Source: an uncultured Dehalococcoidia bacterium
GTDB taxonomy: Bacteria > Chloroflexota > Dehalococcoidia > Lucifugimonadales > Lucifugimonadaceae
Assembly: GCA_958295935.1 (NCBI GenBank)
Contig: OY282385.1
Location: 1,302,001-1,366,000 of the forward strand
Reading direction: 5' to 3'
Length of the DNA: 64,000 nt
The notes below the pieces were generated by a model. It was not told where the DNA came from. It saw only the letters and a program-made list of their open reading frames with translations, and did no database searches. The position numbers were made by a program, and so were the translations under genes. Of this stretch, positions 1 through 5,459 are shown piece by piece. The number at the start of each line of letters is the position of its first letter. Positions within the stretch are counted from its first letter, which is position 1.

Positions 1-201
1 CCATATCCCATACTGCACCACCAAGGGACGATCCAGCCCCATCTTCTTGCCCCAAGCCTCATACTGCTCCAGCGACGTGTACTCATCGAGAAGCACGTTC
101 CGCGGGTCTCCGGTCAGACGGGACAACACAAAGACGAGAGCGGTCGTAGCAAACACGACGACCGCCATGTATATGAACCGCCGAATTGCGAAGTTCCGCA
201 A
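1..201 (-). CDS. DppB-like ABC transporter permease, N-terminal part (cut by window edge)
   Basis: Reading the minus strand from a TTG near 201 down to the window edge gives about 67 residues. They begin with a basic segment and a hydrophobic helix (RRFIYMAVVVFATTALVF), followed by LSRLTGDP and then KKMGLDRPLVVQYGIW. This matches the N-terminus of DppB/OppB permeases, which have TM1, a GDP motif and an LGLDRP..VQY segment. The protein would form half of the membrane channel for the solute-binding lipoprotein encoded just upstream. TTG codons at 210 and 201 are both possible starts, each with a GAGG close by, so the exact start is uncertain. The family is about 310-340 aa long, so most of the gene lies to the left of the window. 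Confidence 0.8.
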   Translation of the reverse strand, partial: MRNFAIRRFIYMAVVVFATTALVFVLSRLTGDPRNVLLDEYTSLEQYEAWGKKMGLDRPLVVQYGIW

Positions 202-340
202 TGGCCTCAATTACCTCGAACTGCCAAGGCTCTCAGGACGAGCGCCGCAGTTCAACGCCGTTCACGCGTTCCGATAAGCGCCCGCAGCGAATCTTTCCAA
301 CCGCTCACCCCGCGCCGAACGCCCGCGCAGGCGGCCCCAA

Positions 341-397: not shown

Positions 398-2257
398 CTA
401 GCGAATCACCACGGTCTCAGGTGAGTTGAACCCGCCGAAGTGAGGCGCCCATTCCGCCACTTCAGGCCGCACGGCCCAGTACAGCACCCGCTGCACTATC
501 GGCGCCACCAAGCGATTGTGCGAAAGCCAATTCTGCACCCGCGCATTGTTCGTTATGAGAGCCGTTTGGCTGATGATCTCGCGGTTCTCATACCACGGCG
601 ATGCCACGTCGTTGGGCAACTCGATCCCATAATTGAAACCCGCAGAAGGCACCATTGAGTGGAACTTCGACTGGTACAGGAAACCATACGATTCCGACTG
701 CATCAGCCAAGGGTTGTCCATCGAACGGTCAACCAGCCTGGGACGGTTGGCTGAGTAGGCAACGTTGGATATCTCAACGTTGCATCCCAGCGCGGTCCAC
801 ATCTGCGCCACCACGTTGCCCACGTCCGGCGTGATCAGCGACGGCAGGTCAGGCGCTATCTGGAAGGTGAATGGGAAGCAGTTCGGGTACCCCGCCTCGG
901 CCAGCATAGACCTCGCGCCGTCGGGGTCGTACGCGATGAGCCAGTCGTCACTCCAACCTGGGTCGCCAGGCAGGAAGCCGGCGTTCGTGTACGTGGGAAA
1001 GCCGCGCCCGTCAAGAGCCACGTCGTTCACGAGATCCCGGTCTATCGCCATGGAAAGCGCCCAACGCACCTGCCGCGCTTTCTCGTACTGTGCAGGGTCG
1101 CGAGGGTCGCCGATCCATGGGTGATCGTCATCCGGCTTGAAACCATCCCTAGGGAATATCGACTCGCCTGTGTCAGGCCAAACCTCGGCATAGTAGTTGC
1201 CGCTGAATATGGCCGACTGACCCGTGCCGCGGTCCGTTTGAACCGTGTAGGAGCCTGAAACCGATTCCAGGGTCGGCGTCAGGAACTTGAGCGAAGGCCG
1301 GATTATGTGCACGTCGCCCGTCTCGAACGCGGCCCGCTGGATCGACTCCTCAGGGAGCTCAACGTAGCGCACCGTGTCTATGTTCGGACGCTTGCGCCAA
1401 TGGTCCTTGACCGCATCGGCTACAAGCTCTTCGCCGCCAACCCACGACTGCACCTCGAACGGGCCGGTCGCAACCATCGAAGTCACTGACGCGGCCTGTC
1501 CGTTGTCGTCGAAGAACTTCTTGCTGACAAGCGGAACGTGGTTGCCGTTGGTCTGCGCCTGGGCCTGCCACCAGTTGGGGTCTATGACGTCCTTCAGGTA
1601 CAGCGTGACGGTGTTCTCGTCCACCACCTCCCACCGGTCCATGTACCGCTTCAGTTCACCCGCGCGTCCAAAGTTGCTCTCGTCCGAGATGGCGTCGTTG
1701 AAGCTGAACGCCACGTCCTCGGCAGTGAGCTCTCCATAGCCTTTGTGGAACATCACGCCGTCGCGAATCGTGTACGTGATGGTACCGCTTGGAACGTCGT
1801 ACACCCAGTCCGTAGCGATGCCCTGAGAACTCTGTTCCCCAAGATCCGGCGGCTCCACGTAGGTGTATCGGACCAGGCTCTCGAACACTCCGGATGATGC
1901 ATTGAACACCGCAGAGGAGAACGCCGACTGTGAAGGAAGGAATATCGGGGGGTCTACCTTGGCCAAACCTACGACCAGCGTGCCTCCCCCGCCCTCAGGT
2001 TCCATCATCATGCCAGACGTACCTGGTTGGGCCGTCGCAGCAGGCATCGCCGTCGCAGCAGGCATAGCAGGAGCGCCCGCCATAGCCGTAGCCGCAGGCA
2101 TCGCCGTCGCAGCAGGCATCGCTTGCTCCGCGGCTTTGGGAGCGTCCGGCTGACGAGGTTGTGCAGTAGCCACAGTTTCACCGCCGCCGCAGGCCGCGAC
2201 GAGAGATACCAGAGCGGCAAATACCAGCAGCCCTCCTATTTTCTTGATTAACGACAT
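398..2257 (-). CDS. ABC transporter solute-binding lipoprotein, family 5 (peptide/nickel type)
   Basis: A 619-aa exported binding protein. The N-terminus is a lipoprotein signal peptide (MSLIKKIGGLLVFAALVSLVAAC, lipobox LVAAC). A low-complexity linker of repeated AMPAAT units follows (about residues 45-80), and then an SBP_bac_5 domain starting near GGTLVVGLAKVDPP. The domain has typical family signatures: YTIRDGVMFHKGYGELTAEDVAFS, VALSMAIDRDLVN and AYDPDGARSMLAEAGYP. The start is supported by an AGGAGG ribosome site 7-8 nt before the ATG. It is the third gene of a minus-strand operon behind the grdB-like and grdE-like genes and ahead of a DppB-like permease. It probably captures the substrate, or a precursor of it, used by the reductase-like pair. 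The actual ligand cannot be read from sequence. Confidence 0.92.
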   Translation of the reverse strand: MSLIKKIGGLLVFAALVSLVAACGGGETVATAQPRQPDAPKAAEQAMPAATAMPAATAMAGAPAMPAATAMPAATAQPGTSGMMMEPEGGGGTLVVGLAKVDPPIFLPSQSAFSSAVFNASSGVFESLVRYTYVEPPDLGEQSSQGIATDWVYDVPSGTITYTIRDGVMFHKGYGELTAEDVAFSFNDAISDESNFGRAGELKRYMDRWEVVDENTVTLYLKDVIDPNWWQAQAQTNGNHVPLVSKKFFDDNGQAASVTSMVATGPFEVQSWVGGEELVADAVKDHWRKRPNIDTVRYVELPEESIQRAAFETGDVHIIRPSLKFLTPTLESVSGSYTVQTDRGTGQSAIFSGNYYAEVWPDTGESIFPRDGFKPDDDHPWIGDPRDPAQYEKARQVRWALSMAIDRDLVNDVALDGRGFPTYTNAGFLPGDPGWSDDWLIAYDPDGARSMLAEAGYPNCFPFTFQIAPDLPSLITPDVGNVVAQMWTALGCNVEISNVAYSANRPRLVDRSMDNPWLMQSESYGFLYQSKFHSMVPSAGFNYGIELPNDVASPWYENREIISQTALITNNARVQNWLSHNRLVAPIVQRVLYWAVRPEVAEWAPHFGGFNSPETVVIR

Positions 2258-2305: not shown

Positions 2306-3607
2306 TCAGTGATCGATGCGCCCCTGTCGTCCGAAACCATATAGATCGTTGTAGTAAGCCTGACCGTATTGACCGTGAATCGGCGGCTGTTCCTTTTCCC
2401 AGTCACCCGATCCGCTGAAGTCCCCGATCACTCGTTCAACCGCGGGGAAGGGCTCTTCCTGCCCGCCTGTACCCGTGCTGACCACGGACACGACCTCCGG
2501 GGCTGAGATCAACAGGGGTGGAGCCGTTCCGTCCTCATTGTCCTCCTCCTGTGTAAGCAGCACAGTCGGAATACCCGCACGCTCGCACGCTCGCACTCCC
2601 AGCACCGTCTCCACAAAGCGTTGACCGCGTATATCCGTCGTGAGTACCGCGCCTTCAGCGCCCAAGCTCTTCGCCAGATGTGCCAGACGGTCGGCCATCA
2701 GGTCCTTCTCAGACTGCAGCGTCCAGTTAGTCCTCTGCACGATGGCCCCCGCGTAGCTACAGGTCGAGCCATGCTCACGAGCCATCTTCAATACCACTGG
2801 GTTGTTCGTCATCGCCCAGGTACTGCCGGAGTGGCCGGAGTGGTACACCGCGCCATCGAACAGTTCGGTCGCGCTGAGTACCCAAGGAGCCGAAAGCCGC
2901 GTCTGACCGTAGATAGAAGTCCCAAGCGCCGAACGAGCGCCACAGAACCACTCATCCGAGGCCAAGTTGAAGATGCTAACCACCTTGGGCAATCGCTTGC
3001 CCTGATCCCTTCCCATAGAAGAAGGAGAGGTTCCAAATTCCTCCACGTCATCGGGCGACGCCGTCAGAGTTACCTCGGCCAGTCTGTCCGCCACCCTCAG
3101 CGTGGCCCTTCCAAGCGCAGAGTGCCAGTCCTCACCCGATAGACCCCCTCCAGCCGCGACCTCCAGACATACGTTGTGGAGAGTTCCATATGGCGTAGCG
3201 CCTCCGGGTCCCGACATGTCGATGAACGATCCGGGCGGACGGAGCGGCGGCCACGTCTGCTCTTCAGATAGAAGGCCGGAGGTGTCAGCGCATTGCACCA
3301 CGGCGACGCCGCCCAATCGGTTGGTGCGGCCTTCGCCAACCTGCTCGACGGGCCTGCCAAAAACGCCTGGGTACACTGTCCCCGGTCCGTCAGCCTTCAC
3401 CGCGGGCTCCACTATGTCTCGCCAGTTGACTATGCGAACTGGATCCCCGGGCGACGCCAGATGGACGCGCGCGGAAACTACGTCGGGGTCTTCAAGCGCG
3501 AGCGACTCAAGCTCCGCGCGGTCCACGTGAAGAACCCCGTCGCGCAATTCCGTCTGACGGCCAAAGGCCACTCCCCTTACTGAAAAGGTCGCGCGCTCAT
3601 ACGCCAA
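2306..3607 (-). CDS. Glycine/sarcosine/betaine reductase component B, GrdE-like subunit
   Basis: A 433-aa protein of the GrdE/GrdG family (component B alpha/beta proprotein). Evidence is the segment FDGAVYHSGHSGSTWAMTNN followed by PVVLKMAREHG, then AEGAVLTTDIRG and a C-terminal part ending PAVERVIGDFSG. The TTG start at 3607 has a GGAGGAG ribosome site. It overlaps the end of the grdB-like gene by 11 nt, so the two are probably translationally coupled. Classical GrdE is cleaved at an Asn-Cys bond to form a pyruvoyl group that binds the amine. At the matching place I see SGHSGS and no cysteine, so the classical cofactor may be absent or formed from serine. No GrdA, GrdC or GrdD is present in the window. 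Family assignment is fairly secure; substrate and reaction are not. Confidence 0.75.
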   Translation of the reverse strand: MAYERATFSVRGVAFGRQTELRDGVLHVDRAELESLALEDPDVVSARVHLASPGDPVRIVNWRDIVEPAVKADGPGTVYPGVFGRPVEQVGEGRTNRLGGVAVVQCADTSGLLSEEQTWPPLRPPGSFIDMSGPGGATPYGTLHNVCLEVAAGGGLSGEDWHSALGRATLRVADRLAEVTLTASPDDVEEFGTSPSSMGRDQGKRLPKVVSIFNLASDEWFCGARSALGTSIYGQTRLSAPWVLSATELFDGAVYHSGHSGSTWAMTNNPVVLKMAREHGSTCSYAGAIVQRTNWTLQSEKDLMADRLAHLAKSLGAEGAVLTTDIRGQRFVETVLGVRACERAGIPTVLLTQEEDNEDGTAPPLLISAPEVVSVVSTGTGGQEEPFPAVERVIGDFSGSGDWEKEQPPIHGQYGQAYYNDLYGFGRQGRIDH

Positions 3608-4955
3608 GGCCGAGCTCCTCCATCAGCGGTTCGTCCGGCGGCACGAACCTCGTTGGCCCATCCACTTCGGTCTGCAGGGCCTCCAGCGCGGTTTCGACAA
3701 TGCGCCGCCCCAGCTTGCGGTCCACTTCCGGCGTCAGACGCGGATCTCCGCAAACGTGTTCTACGCGCACCCCTCTTACCACTCTGGCCGCGCCCACGGA
3801 AAGGGGGATGATCGGCAGCGCGGTCAACACCGCAACCGGTATACCCGTTTTCTCTATTTCCTTCGCCATCGTTGCGCCGCAACGATTGCAACTCCCTCAG
3901 GTGGCCACCAGCAACACGCCGTCTATCCCCGCGGCCCTGAGCTCGCTGCCGATCTCCGAGCCCATTCGACGAGCCGTCGTGACCGGTGTGCCGTTGCCGG
4001 TGGTCGAAAGAAAGTGGGAATAGACCCCCGCGATAACGCCCTCCCGTTCGATCTCCCGGACAATGGGCAGAGGCAGGACGTAGCTGGGGTCGCGAGTGTT
4101 GAGGTGCACAGTGCTGAAACCCATGTGCACAGACTCCCAGTCATCCGTGCCGAGACGGTCGAGCCCGTCTATGGAGTAACGGAAGAAGTCTCTGGCCCTC
4201 CCTCCGACCTGGTTGTCCGGGTTTCCCTTGGGCACCAGTCCGCCGCTGGTGACCAGCGCGATGTTTGCCTTCGAGACGTCTTTGATCGGAGGCGCCGGCG
4301 AAACGGTCTCGTAGCCGGGCGCCTGCACCTCTGACACGTACTCATCGCCGCTCACCCGCGCCATCATCATGCTATAGGCTCGCTCCGCGCCGGTTTGGGA
4401 GTGATCCACAGCCCGGCGAATGCCTCGGGGAACGTAGCCTTCCTCCATGGCAGGGCCGAGCTCCTCGCCGGCAGCTAGCCGCAGCCCAAGTCTTACCATG
4501 CGCTCCATGGCCGCTTGCATACCGGAAGCCTCCGCGCCGGTGGGAACGGCGGTAAGGTGCAGGCGATGGGTCAACACCCCGGTGTTCTCCGGGTGCATAC
4601 CGGTTATGGCAGGTATGCCCCTGGCGTTGGCCGCCATACACACGAGCGCGCACCCCAAGCCGTAGCGGCCTGCGTCGAAAGCAGGCCCGGCGACCACGAG
4701 GTTGGGCTTGTATCTGTCCAGCGCGGCTCCGACCTCTTCAAGAGCCTGCTGCTCGTTTTCGACAATGTAGTTGTCCCCGCATACGACGGTGGCGACCACC
4801 GATCCCGCGGACGAGGACCGCAGCGTTGCTTGCAGGAGTCTGCCAGGCCCTACCGGGCCTTCATGGCATTCCGGCGGAATGTTGGCCTTATCCTCGCTGC
4901 CAACACCTCCAAAGAACTGGTTGAGGTAGTGTAGAACTCGAACTTGGTTTGACAT
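3597..4955 (-). CDS. GrdB-like selenoprotein (component B gamma subunit), in-frame UGA read as selenocysteine
   Basis: Two adjacent minus-strand ORFs, 3897-4955 and 3597-3869, lie in the same frame and are separated by one TGA at 3897-3899. Reading through gives 452 aa. The N-terminus VLHYLNQFFGGVGSEDKA is typical of GrdB, and PPECHEGPVGPGRLLQ and VVCGDNYIVEN follow. The site reads VLLVAT-U-GSCNRCGATMAKEIEKTG, matching the known GrdB pattern UGxCxRCGATM. Sec is residue 353 if the ATG at 4955 is used (a GTG at 4964 adds three residues; the ATG fits the family N-terminus). The full length fits GrdB, about 435-440 aa. A SECIS-like hairpin follows the TGA directly. The gene heads an operon with the GrdE-like protein and a peptide-type importer. 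In classical glycine or betaine reductase this subunit's selenol attacks the substrate; the substrate here is unknown. Confidence 0.85.
3863..3891 (-). promoter_or_regulatory. SECIS-like hairpin downstream of the Sec UGA
   Basis: In mRNA sense, ten nucleotides after the UGA (3897-3899) there is a perfect 8-bp stem with a GGC loop: AUCGUUGCGGCGCAACGAU at 3886-3868. Beyond an A-G mismatch it extends with four more pairs (UUGC/GCGA-side, including one U-G). The loop lies about 19-21 nt after the UGA. That spacing resembles the bacterial SelB-binding element of E. coli fdhF, whose apical loop also contains exposed G residues. It lies inside the coding region, as bacterial SECIS elements do. Function is inferred from position and shape. 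Confidence 0.7.
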
Positions 4956-5459
4956 ATGCCACACACGCGCTTGAGGGGAGGCAGGGTTTTCAAACTCCCC
5001 GCGTCAACTTGTAAGAAGCGGACAAGGTTTCGGCGACTTTCGGAAGCTATCCGCGGCGGCTTCCTGCTCTGCCGTACAAGACCTTGAGCAACCTGACAGG
5101 CAGCTGAGAAGCCTCACCTTATCCTATTTGGAAGGCGTCCGATAAGTCCCTTCTACCCCCAACGGGGAAGAGTTGGGCATGAACCTCGGCGGGTAGACCT
5201 AAGGTGCCGACTTCCGGCGCGTCGGGATGCCTTTGCGTTATGACGTATTGTTGAGTACCGGGTGCGGGCAAGGGGCGCAGGAAGAACACAATTGCGGCGC
5301 CTGGAATGGTGGCCTACGCGTACTGCATTGCGAATTTGGTGCGTATTCCCAACATAGCTCACGCGTCGGGCTGTGGCGGTAAGGCCCTCGTCGACGCGAT
5401 CCACCTACAACCGTGGATAAGCAGGGTCGCGCCGCCTGACAGGGCGCTCCGACTCGGCG
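4956..5459. other. Intergenic region upstream of the grdB-like operon
   Basis: About 500 bp without a credible gene; the short ORFs here show no recognisable protein character. The minus-strand promoter of the grdB-like operon should lie here. A TTGACG occurs about 45 nt upstream of the start, but I see no convincing -10 at the right distance, so I do not call a promoter. Confidence 0.4.

Follow-up and report, generated by a model that had tools for sequence, protein, structure and literature searches.

A grdB-like gene divided by an in-frame TGA

Near one end of the window considered here (the whole stretch of DNA that was analyzed, 64,000 nucleotides), two open reading frames on the minus strand lie in the same frame, separated by a single TGA. 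Read through, they form one grdB-like selenoprotein gene (3597..4955, minus strand) that runs from an ATG at 4955, or alternatively a GTG at 4964, to a stop at 3597. The sole in-frame TGA (3899-3897) is codon 353, and with UGA read as selenocysteine (Sec) the product has 452 amino acids, one of them Sec. The end of the gene is overlapped by a gene for an E-type partner of the grdE/grdI/farE kind (PF09338; 2306..3607, minus strand; 239 bits against Pfam). Next on the same strand comes an ABC substrate-binding protein of family 5 (SBP_bac_5; 398..2257; Pfam 164 bits), and then the 5' end of an ABC permease gene (1..210), an open reading frame that runs out of the window (genome C1:1301284-1302210). 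The open reading frame of a second ABC permease lies to the left of the window (genome C1:1300372-1301280). Elsewhere, the minus strand carries a single open reading frame of 8791 amino acids (6888-33263) made of He_PIG (Ig-like) repeats of about 91 residues, with a tandem period of 273 bp over about 13 kb and a proline-rich, low-complexity N-terminal part.

In profile searches, the read-through product matches Pfam GRDB (PF07355) with 392 bits (cut-off 22) and NCBIfam TIGR01918 with 422 bits (cut-off 65), the latter match extending over residues 9-440, across the TGA, and taking both halves into one profile. Around residue 353 the motif is ATUGSCNRCGATM (AT-U-GSCNRCGATM), with UxxCxxC kept. 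The coordinates, residue number and motif that an earlier, sequence-only reading had given for the gene were all correct. One might suppose instead that two proteins are translated separately, the first ending at the TGA and the second restarting at the ATG at 3869, which is followed by a frame of 90 codons. A restart at that position, however, would lose the conserved UGSCNRCGAT, the NCBIfam profile is continuous over the TGA, and the AlphaFold model (pLDDT 91.6) places residue 353 inside one domain, where it opens a helix directly after a strand (mean pLDDT there about 89-98). Two separate proteins are thus very improbable.

The protein following the TGA, compared with that of the closest relative (L046), gives a dN of 0.26 and a dS of 4.3, the latter near saturation; by this measure the sequence after the TGA, beyond the SECIS, is under purifying selection. 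Searches of known structures were not used in considering function. A PDB sequence search with both subunits gave no meaningful match, a fold search with the GrdB model gave generic Rossmann-type matches only (residues 1-176, Z up to 11.5), and one with the model of the E subunit (pLDDT 86.6) gave nothing below E 0.001.

The hairpin downstream of the TGA

The SECIS (3868..3886, minus strand) is a hairpin with an 8-bp stem, ATCGTTGC/GCAACGAT, and an apical loop of GGC (3878-3876), its first stem base 10 nt past the TGA. RNAfold assigns -14.3 kcal/mol to the 42 nt considered (z -2.37), and 4 of 200 shuffled sequences were equally stable. By themselves these fold statistics are weak evidence, and for this reason we rely for both Sec and SECIS on comparative data, which are decisive. 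Among 88 genes of the family, four codons within the hairpin were set against the counts expected from codon usage in the remainder of each same gene: CGT appears in 66 of 78 (12.6 expected), TGC in 80 of 80 (51 expected), GCA in 81 of 87 (16 expected) and ACG in 70 of 76 (19.7 expected). As judged from these counts, the synonymous positions of the hairpin are constrained far more strictly than the codon usage of each gene would predict. The stem also carries compensatory double changes from T-A to C-G, while two paralogs within the same genome (L022 and L023) have a C-A mismatch in the stem. The hairpin described from the window sequence alone is borne out.

Selenium machinery and conservation of the codon

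The host genome, a single contig of 2.75 Mb that is 95% complete, was searched for selA, selB, selD and tRNA-Sec, as the sequence-only reading had suggested, the lack of SelB and tRNA-Sec being what would have told against it. All four are present: a tRNA-Sec with anticodon TCA (70 bits), SelB (337 bits, cut-off 242), SelA (516 bits, cut-off 268) and SelD (381 bits, cut-off 125). SelD (L016, genome C1:970798-971724) is itself a selenoprotein, with one in-frame TGA in the motif CGGUAGK. The genome has five GrdB genes, the other four about 50-55% identical to that of the window, and each carries a single TGA, in every case at the corresponding position and followed by a similar hairpin.

Beyond the genome, a GTDB scan supplied 79 loci for reading, spread over Chloroflexota, Rokuibacteriota, Bacillota, Myxococcota, Pseudomonadota and other groups. 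TGA occupies the position of residue 353 in nearly all of them, wherever the segment was recovered; the three exceptions (L051, L102, L123) have frames that end ahead of the motif. That the codon is kept in relatives also argues against halves that are separately expressed. Homologs with Cys in place of Sec, which the sequence-only reading had proposed looking for, were not seen among the loci retrieved, which agrees with their published rarity (PMC1794560). In some GrdB relatives UGTC is replaced by UGTS or UGTG, so that the first Cys of UxxCxxC is missing (L059:9875-11182, L068, L078, L084, L086, L087, L099, L106 and L114).

In a MAG-like genome, a stop within the frame might reflect a sequencing error or a decaying gene in which the TGA is a true stop, and nothing more than that stop speaks for this view. 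It is refuted by the conservation of TGA at the equivalent codon in five paralogs and nearly all of 79 loci from several phyla, and it fits neither the complete Sec machinery, nor the constraint on the hairpin, nor the selection on the protein beyond the stop; we give it almost no credence. We regard it as established at the level of sequence that codon 353 is decoded as Sec. The earlier claim holds at its core: the gene encodes a GrdB-like protein with Sec, and annotation would break it in two.

Relatives of the gene

In a tree of 88 rows, rooted only at its midpoint, the gene of the window is sister to a gene from groundwater Chloroflexi (support 100/99). The five paralogs fall within a clade of 34 rows comprising Chloroflexota/SAR202, Rokuibacteriota and a few others. 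Since they are scattered over its subclades, they are old paralogs and not recent copies. By these relatives the organism is of Chloroflexota type. The clade of the window GrdB conserves an extra cysteine, Cys402, and has Ala in place of the Ser of the STUG motif. Strong matches to GrdB are patchy within the class, found in 10 of 294 genomes and in none of the nine other genomes of the same family. A non-exhaustive search of the literature found no papers joining "grdB" and "SAR202".

The partner subunit and the importer genes

Every one of the five GrdB genes has an E gene as partner, and four of the five pairs stand beside genes for family-5 ABC import. Next to each of the paralogs L022, L023 and L025 lie SBP_bac_5, permeases and an E gene, while the paralog at C1:538061 has no adjoining importer genes. 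The relative L046 retains the order B-E-SBP. Family-5 binding proteins take a wide range of ligands.

Alignment with Bacillota GrdE of the glycine type, in which the pyruvoyl segment SGNCVSACDKNTTY is present, shows that this segment is absent from all six E proteins of the genome. In these and in Chloroflexota relatives, the corresponding segment lacks those cysteines and is mostly shorter. The pyruvoyl group of C. difficile GrdE forms from a Cys at residue 242 (PMC9908766), which from its position would be a Cys of SGNCVSACDKNTTY. FarE and GrdI are reported to be without these cysteines and not to be pro-proteins, and the Ser of STUG has been proposed as another source of the carbonyl (PMC10838667). 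Since that Ser is replaced by Ala in the clade considered here, no carbonyl source is visible. The partner E subunit is apparently uncleaved. Against NCBIfam this subunit matches only FarE and GrdG, far under the cut-offs (fluoroacetate FarE, NF053623: 125 bits, cut-off 675).

Relationship to glycine reductase

Membership of the GRDB family (PF07355, TIGR01918) is indicated by scores above cut-off over the full length, together with Sec in UxxCxxC, a SECIS and a complete Sec pathway. Scores on the specific models fall short of their cut-offs: glycine GrdB (TIGR01917) with 390 bits (equivalog cut-off 602), sarcosine GrdF (NF040794) with 437 (cut-off 800), betaine GrdH (NF040795) with 375 (cut-off 775) and D-proline PrdB (TIGR04483) with 71 (cut-off 300). 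A control, Caldanaerobacter GrdB (L072), scores 709 on the glycine model.

Of the rest of a glycine reductase complex, the genome offers GrdA, a selenoprotein with one TGA (genome C1:561208-561648; NF040748 190 bits, cut-off 130), and, directly upstream of it, GrdC (587 bits, cut-off 450). They lie about 8 kb from the GrdB paralog at C1:552094, the other B-E pairs being distant. The sequence-only reading had placed the gene outside a full glycine-reductase operon, which holds locally, but GrdA, GrdC and four more GrdB genes are found elsewhere in the genome. A pro-protein GrdE was not found, and component C (GrdC with GrdD) is represented by GrdC. GrdD, the acetyl-phosphate-forming subunit of classical glycine reductase, finds no match to sequence models in the genome and none above cut-off among the 294 class genomes searched, of which 12 have GrdA above cut-off. 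GrdC lies directly upstream, with no GrdD between, at all six GrdA loci inspected, and a GrdD query from Bacillota, run against the 79 loci, matches Bacillota alone. The absence is one of matches to sequence models, and an unrelated protein could replace GrdD. GrdC, mostly with GrdA, was also seen near GrdB with no GrdD match in the flanks read at 11 loci from several non-Bacillota phyla (L068, L078, L086, L096, L103, L108, L109, L111, L114, L115 and L116), and GrdD-less Grd systems may therefore extend more widely than Chloroflexota.

The pair might be nothing other than component B of an ordinary glycine or sarcosine reductase, merely diverged, which yields acetyl-phosphate from glycine. The full-length match to GrdB/GrdF profiles and the presence of GrdA and GrdC would agree with this, but the shortfall on both specific models (compared with the control), the partner without pyruvoyl cysteines and the failure to find GrdD make it unlikely. 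The same three observations leave glycine unsupported as the substrate.

The cluster containing GrdA and GrdC has two further genes. One encodes a sixth GrdE-like protein with no GrdB beside it (L029:12728-14065, minus strand; genome C1:557727-559064). Between it and GrdA lies FtrB_double_U (L029:14069-14506, minus strand; genome C1:559068-559505; 224 bits, cut-off 160), a ferredoxin-thioredoxin-reductase-like protein with two TGA (Sec) codons at redox-active Cys positions. A double-Sec FTR has already been described (PMC2398784, PMC13188914). FtrB_double_U was considered as a dedicated electron donor to Grd and rejected as a general link: it is above cut-off in 20 of the 294 class genomes, two of which it shares with GrdA, and among six loci inspected a Grd gene is nearby in this locus only. 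Together with five GrdB, GrdA and SelD, it brings to at least eight the selenoprotein genes of this genome that a standard gene caller would break up.

Aerobic respiration

Selenoenzymes of the Grd type are usually viewed as markers of anaerobes. The genome encodes CtaD with HPEVY and, adjacent to it, CtaC, which carries a CuA motif and is fused to cytochrome c domains (motifs identified by eye), together a caa3-type oxidase. Aerobic respiration is supported by these genes, in agreement with the description of the organism as probably aerobic in the sequence-only reading. Use of Grd in periods of low oxygen may remain compatible with such an oxidase.

Proposed function

We consider it probable that the gene encodes the Sec-bearing beta subunit of a substrate-specific component B, part of a selenoreductase that shares GrdA and GrdC, lacks GrdD and acts on an imported compound other than glycine. 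By analogy with the known Grd mechanism, the neighboring family-5 ABC importer would deliver a small substrate to the B/E pair, and GrdB with its apparently uncleaved E subunit would bind it. The selenolate of Sec353 would attack the carbon bearing the leaving group to form a carboxyalkyl-selenoether, the carboxyalkyl group would be handed to the Sec of the shared GrdA, GrdC would release an acyl product, and a donor of the thioredoxin type would regenerate the enzyme. Both substrate and product are suggested by what the system lacks. With both proposed carbonyl sources missing, the substrate may be one that needs no Schiff base, as in the reduction of betaine or fluoroacetate, hence probably betaine-like or with another leaving group, unlike glycine or sarcosine, amines that do form one. 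With no GrdD, either another protein forms acetyl-phosphate or the acyl group would leave as something else, perhaps acetyl-CoA.

Dependence on the distant GrdA and GrdC is assumed from co-occurrence only. Perhaps the B-E pair acts independently of them, for example as a detoxifying reductase that frees its reduced product after reduction by a thiol. The distance of the B-E pairs from GrdA/GrdC (except at C1:552094) would suit such an enzyme, and Cys402, conserved in the clade, could serve as its resolving thiol. However, GrdA is found in 9 of the 10 class genomes with strong GrdB (about 0.4 expected by chance), and GrdB, GrdC and GrdA occur together in several Chloroflexota loci. Independence is accordingly rather unlikely, though a little less so than an ordinary glycine or sarcosine reductase.

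Five GrdB genes in an oxygen-respiring genome, each with an E gene and four beside importers, point to a reductive breakdown of small compounds that is as yet unexplored, and to release of the acyl group in a step that dispenses with the known subunit forming acetyl-phosphate. More tentatively, there may be a branch of the superfamily, GrdD-less and pyruvoyl-free, in oxygen-respiring Chloroflexota and related lineages, whose members are importer-linked selenoreductases for dissolved organic compounds and whose common GrdA/GrdC module leads to acetyl-CoA or another acyl product, not acetyl-phosphate. GrdB selenoproteins, multiple B components and pyruvoyl-free E subunits are already known singly. 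Their combination with importer linkage, an oxygen-respiring host and no GrdD found was not met in the literature searched, coverage of which was partial.

Comparison with known systems

The pair shares with component B of Bacillota glycine reductase (GrdB/GrdE) the full-length GrdB family, the Sec codon, a near-identical SECIS, UGxCxRCGAT and an E-type partner. It differs in having no pyruvoyl segment, in gene order (B-E here, E-A-B in Bacillota), in scoring below cut-off, in the lack of a GrdD match and in the motif itself (ATUGSCN rather than STUGTCT). The E proteins here resemble GrdI of betaine reductase (GrdH/GrdI), known to us by description rather than by alignment, in that GrdI is reported to be uncleaved and cysteine-free (PMC10838667), but the GrdB is set apart from GrdH by its score (375 against a cut-off of 775). 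In FarB/FarE, the fluoroacetate system of Synergistota, a GrdB paralog has been repurposed for another leaving group, GrdA/C are shared and FarE is reported to be without pyruvoyl cysteines; FarB, however, is reported to lack CxxC, whereas the GrdB considered here retains UxxCxxC and its partner reaches only 125 of the 675 bits set for FarE. A genome with many substrate-specific B components has a counterpart in Cloacibacillus porcorum MFA1, which has eight grdB genes (PMC10838667), although that organism is an anaerobic member of Synergistota and the present host is an oxygen-respiring organism of Chloroflexota type in which GrdD was not found. Grd genes are also known from the Dehalococcoidia of serpentinite environments, the same class of Chloroflexota, in which catabolic glycine reductases have been described along with hydrogenases or formate dehydrogenases (PMC9751293); the host considered here differs from them in its five B paralogs, four of which stand beside importers.
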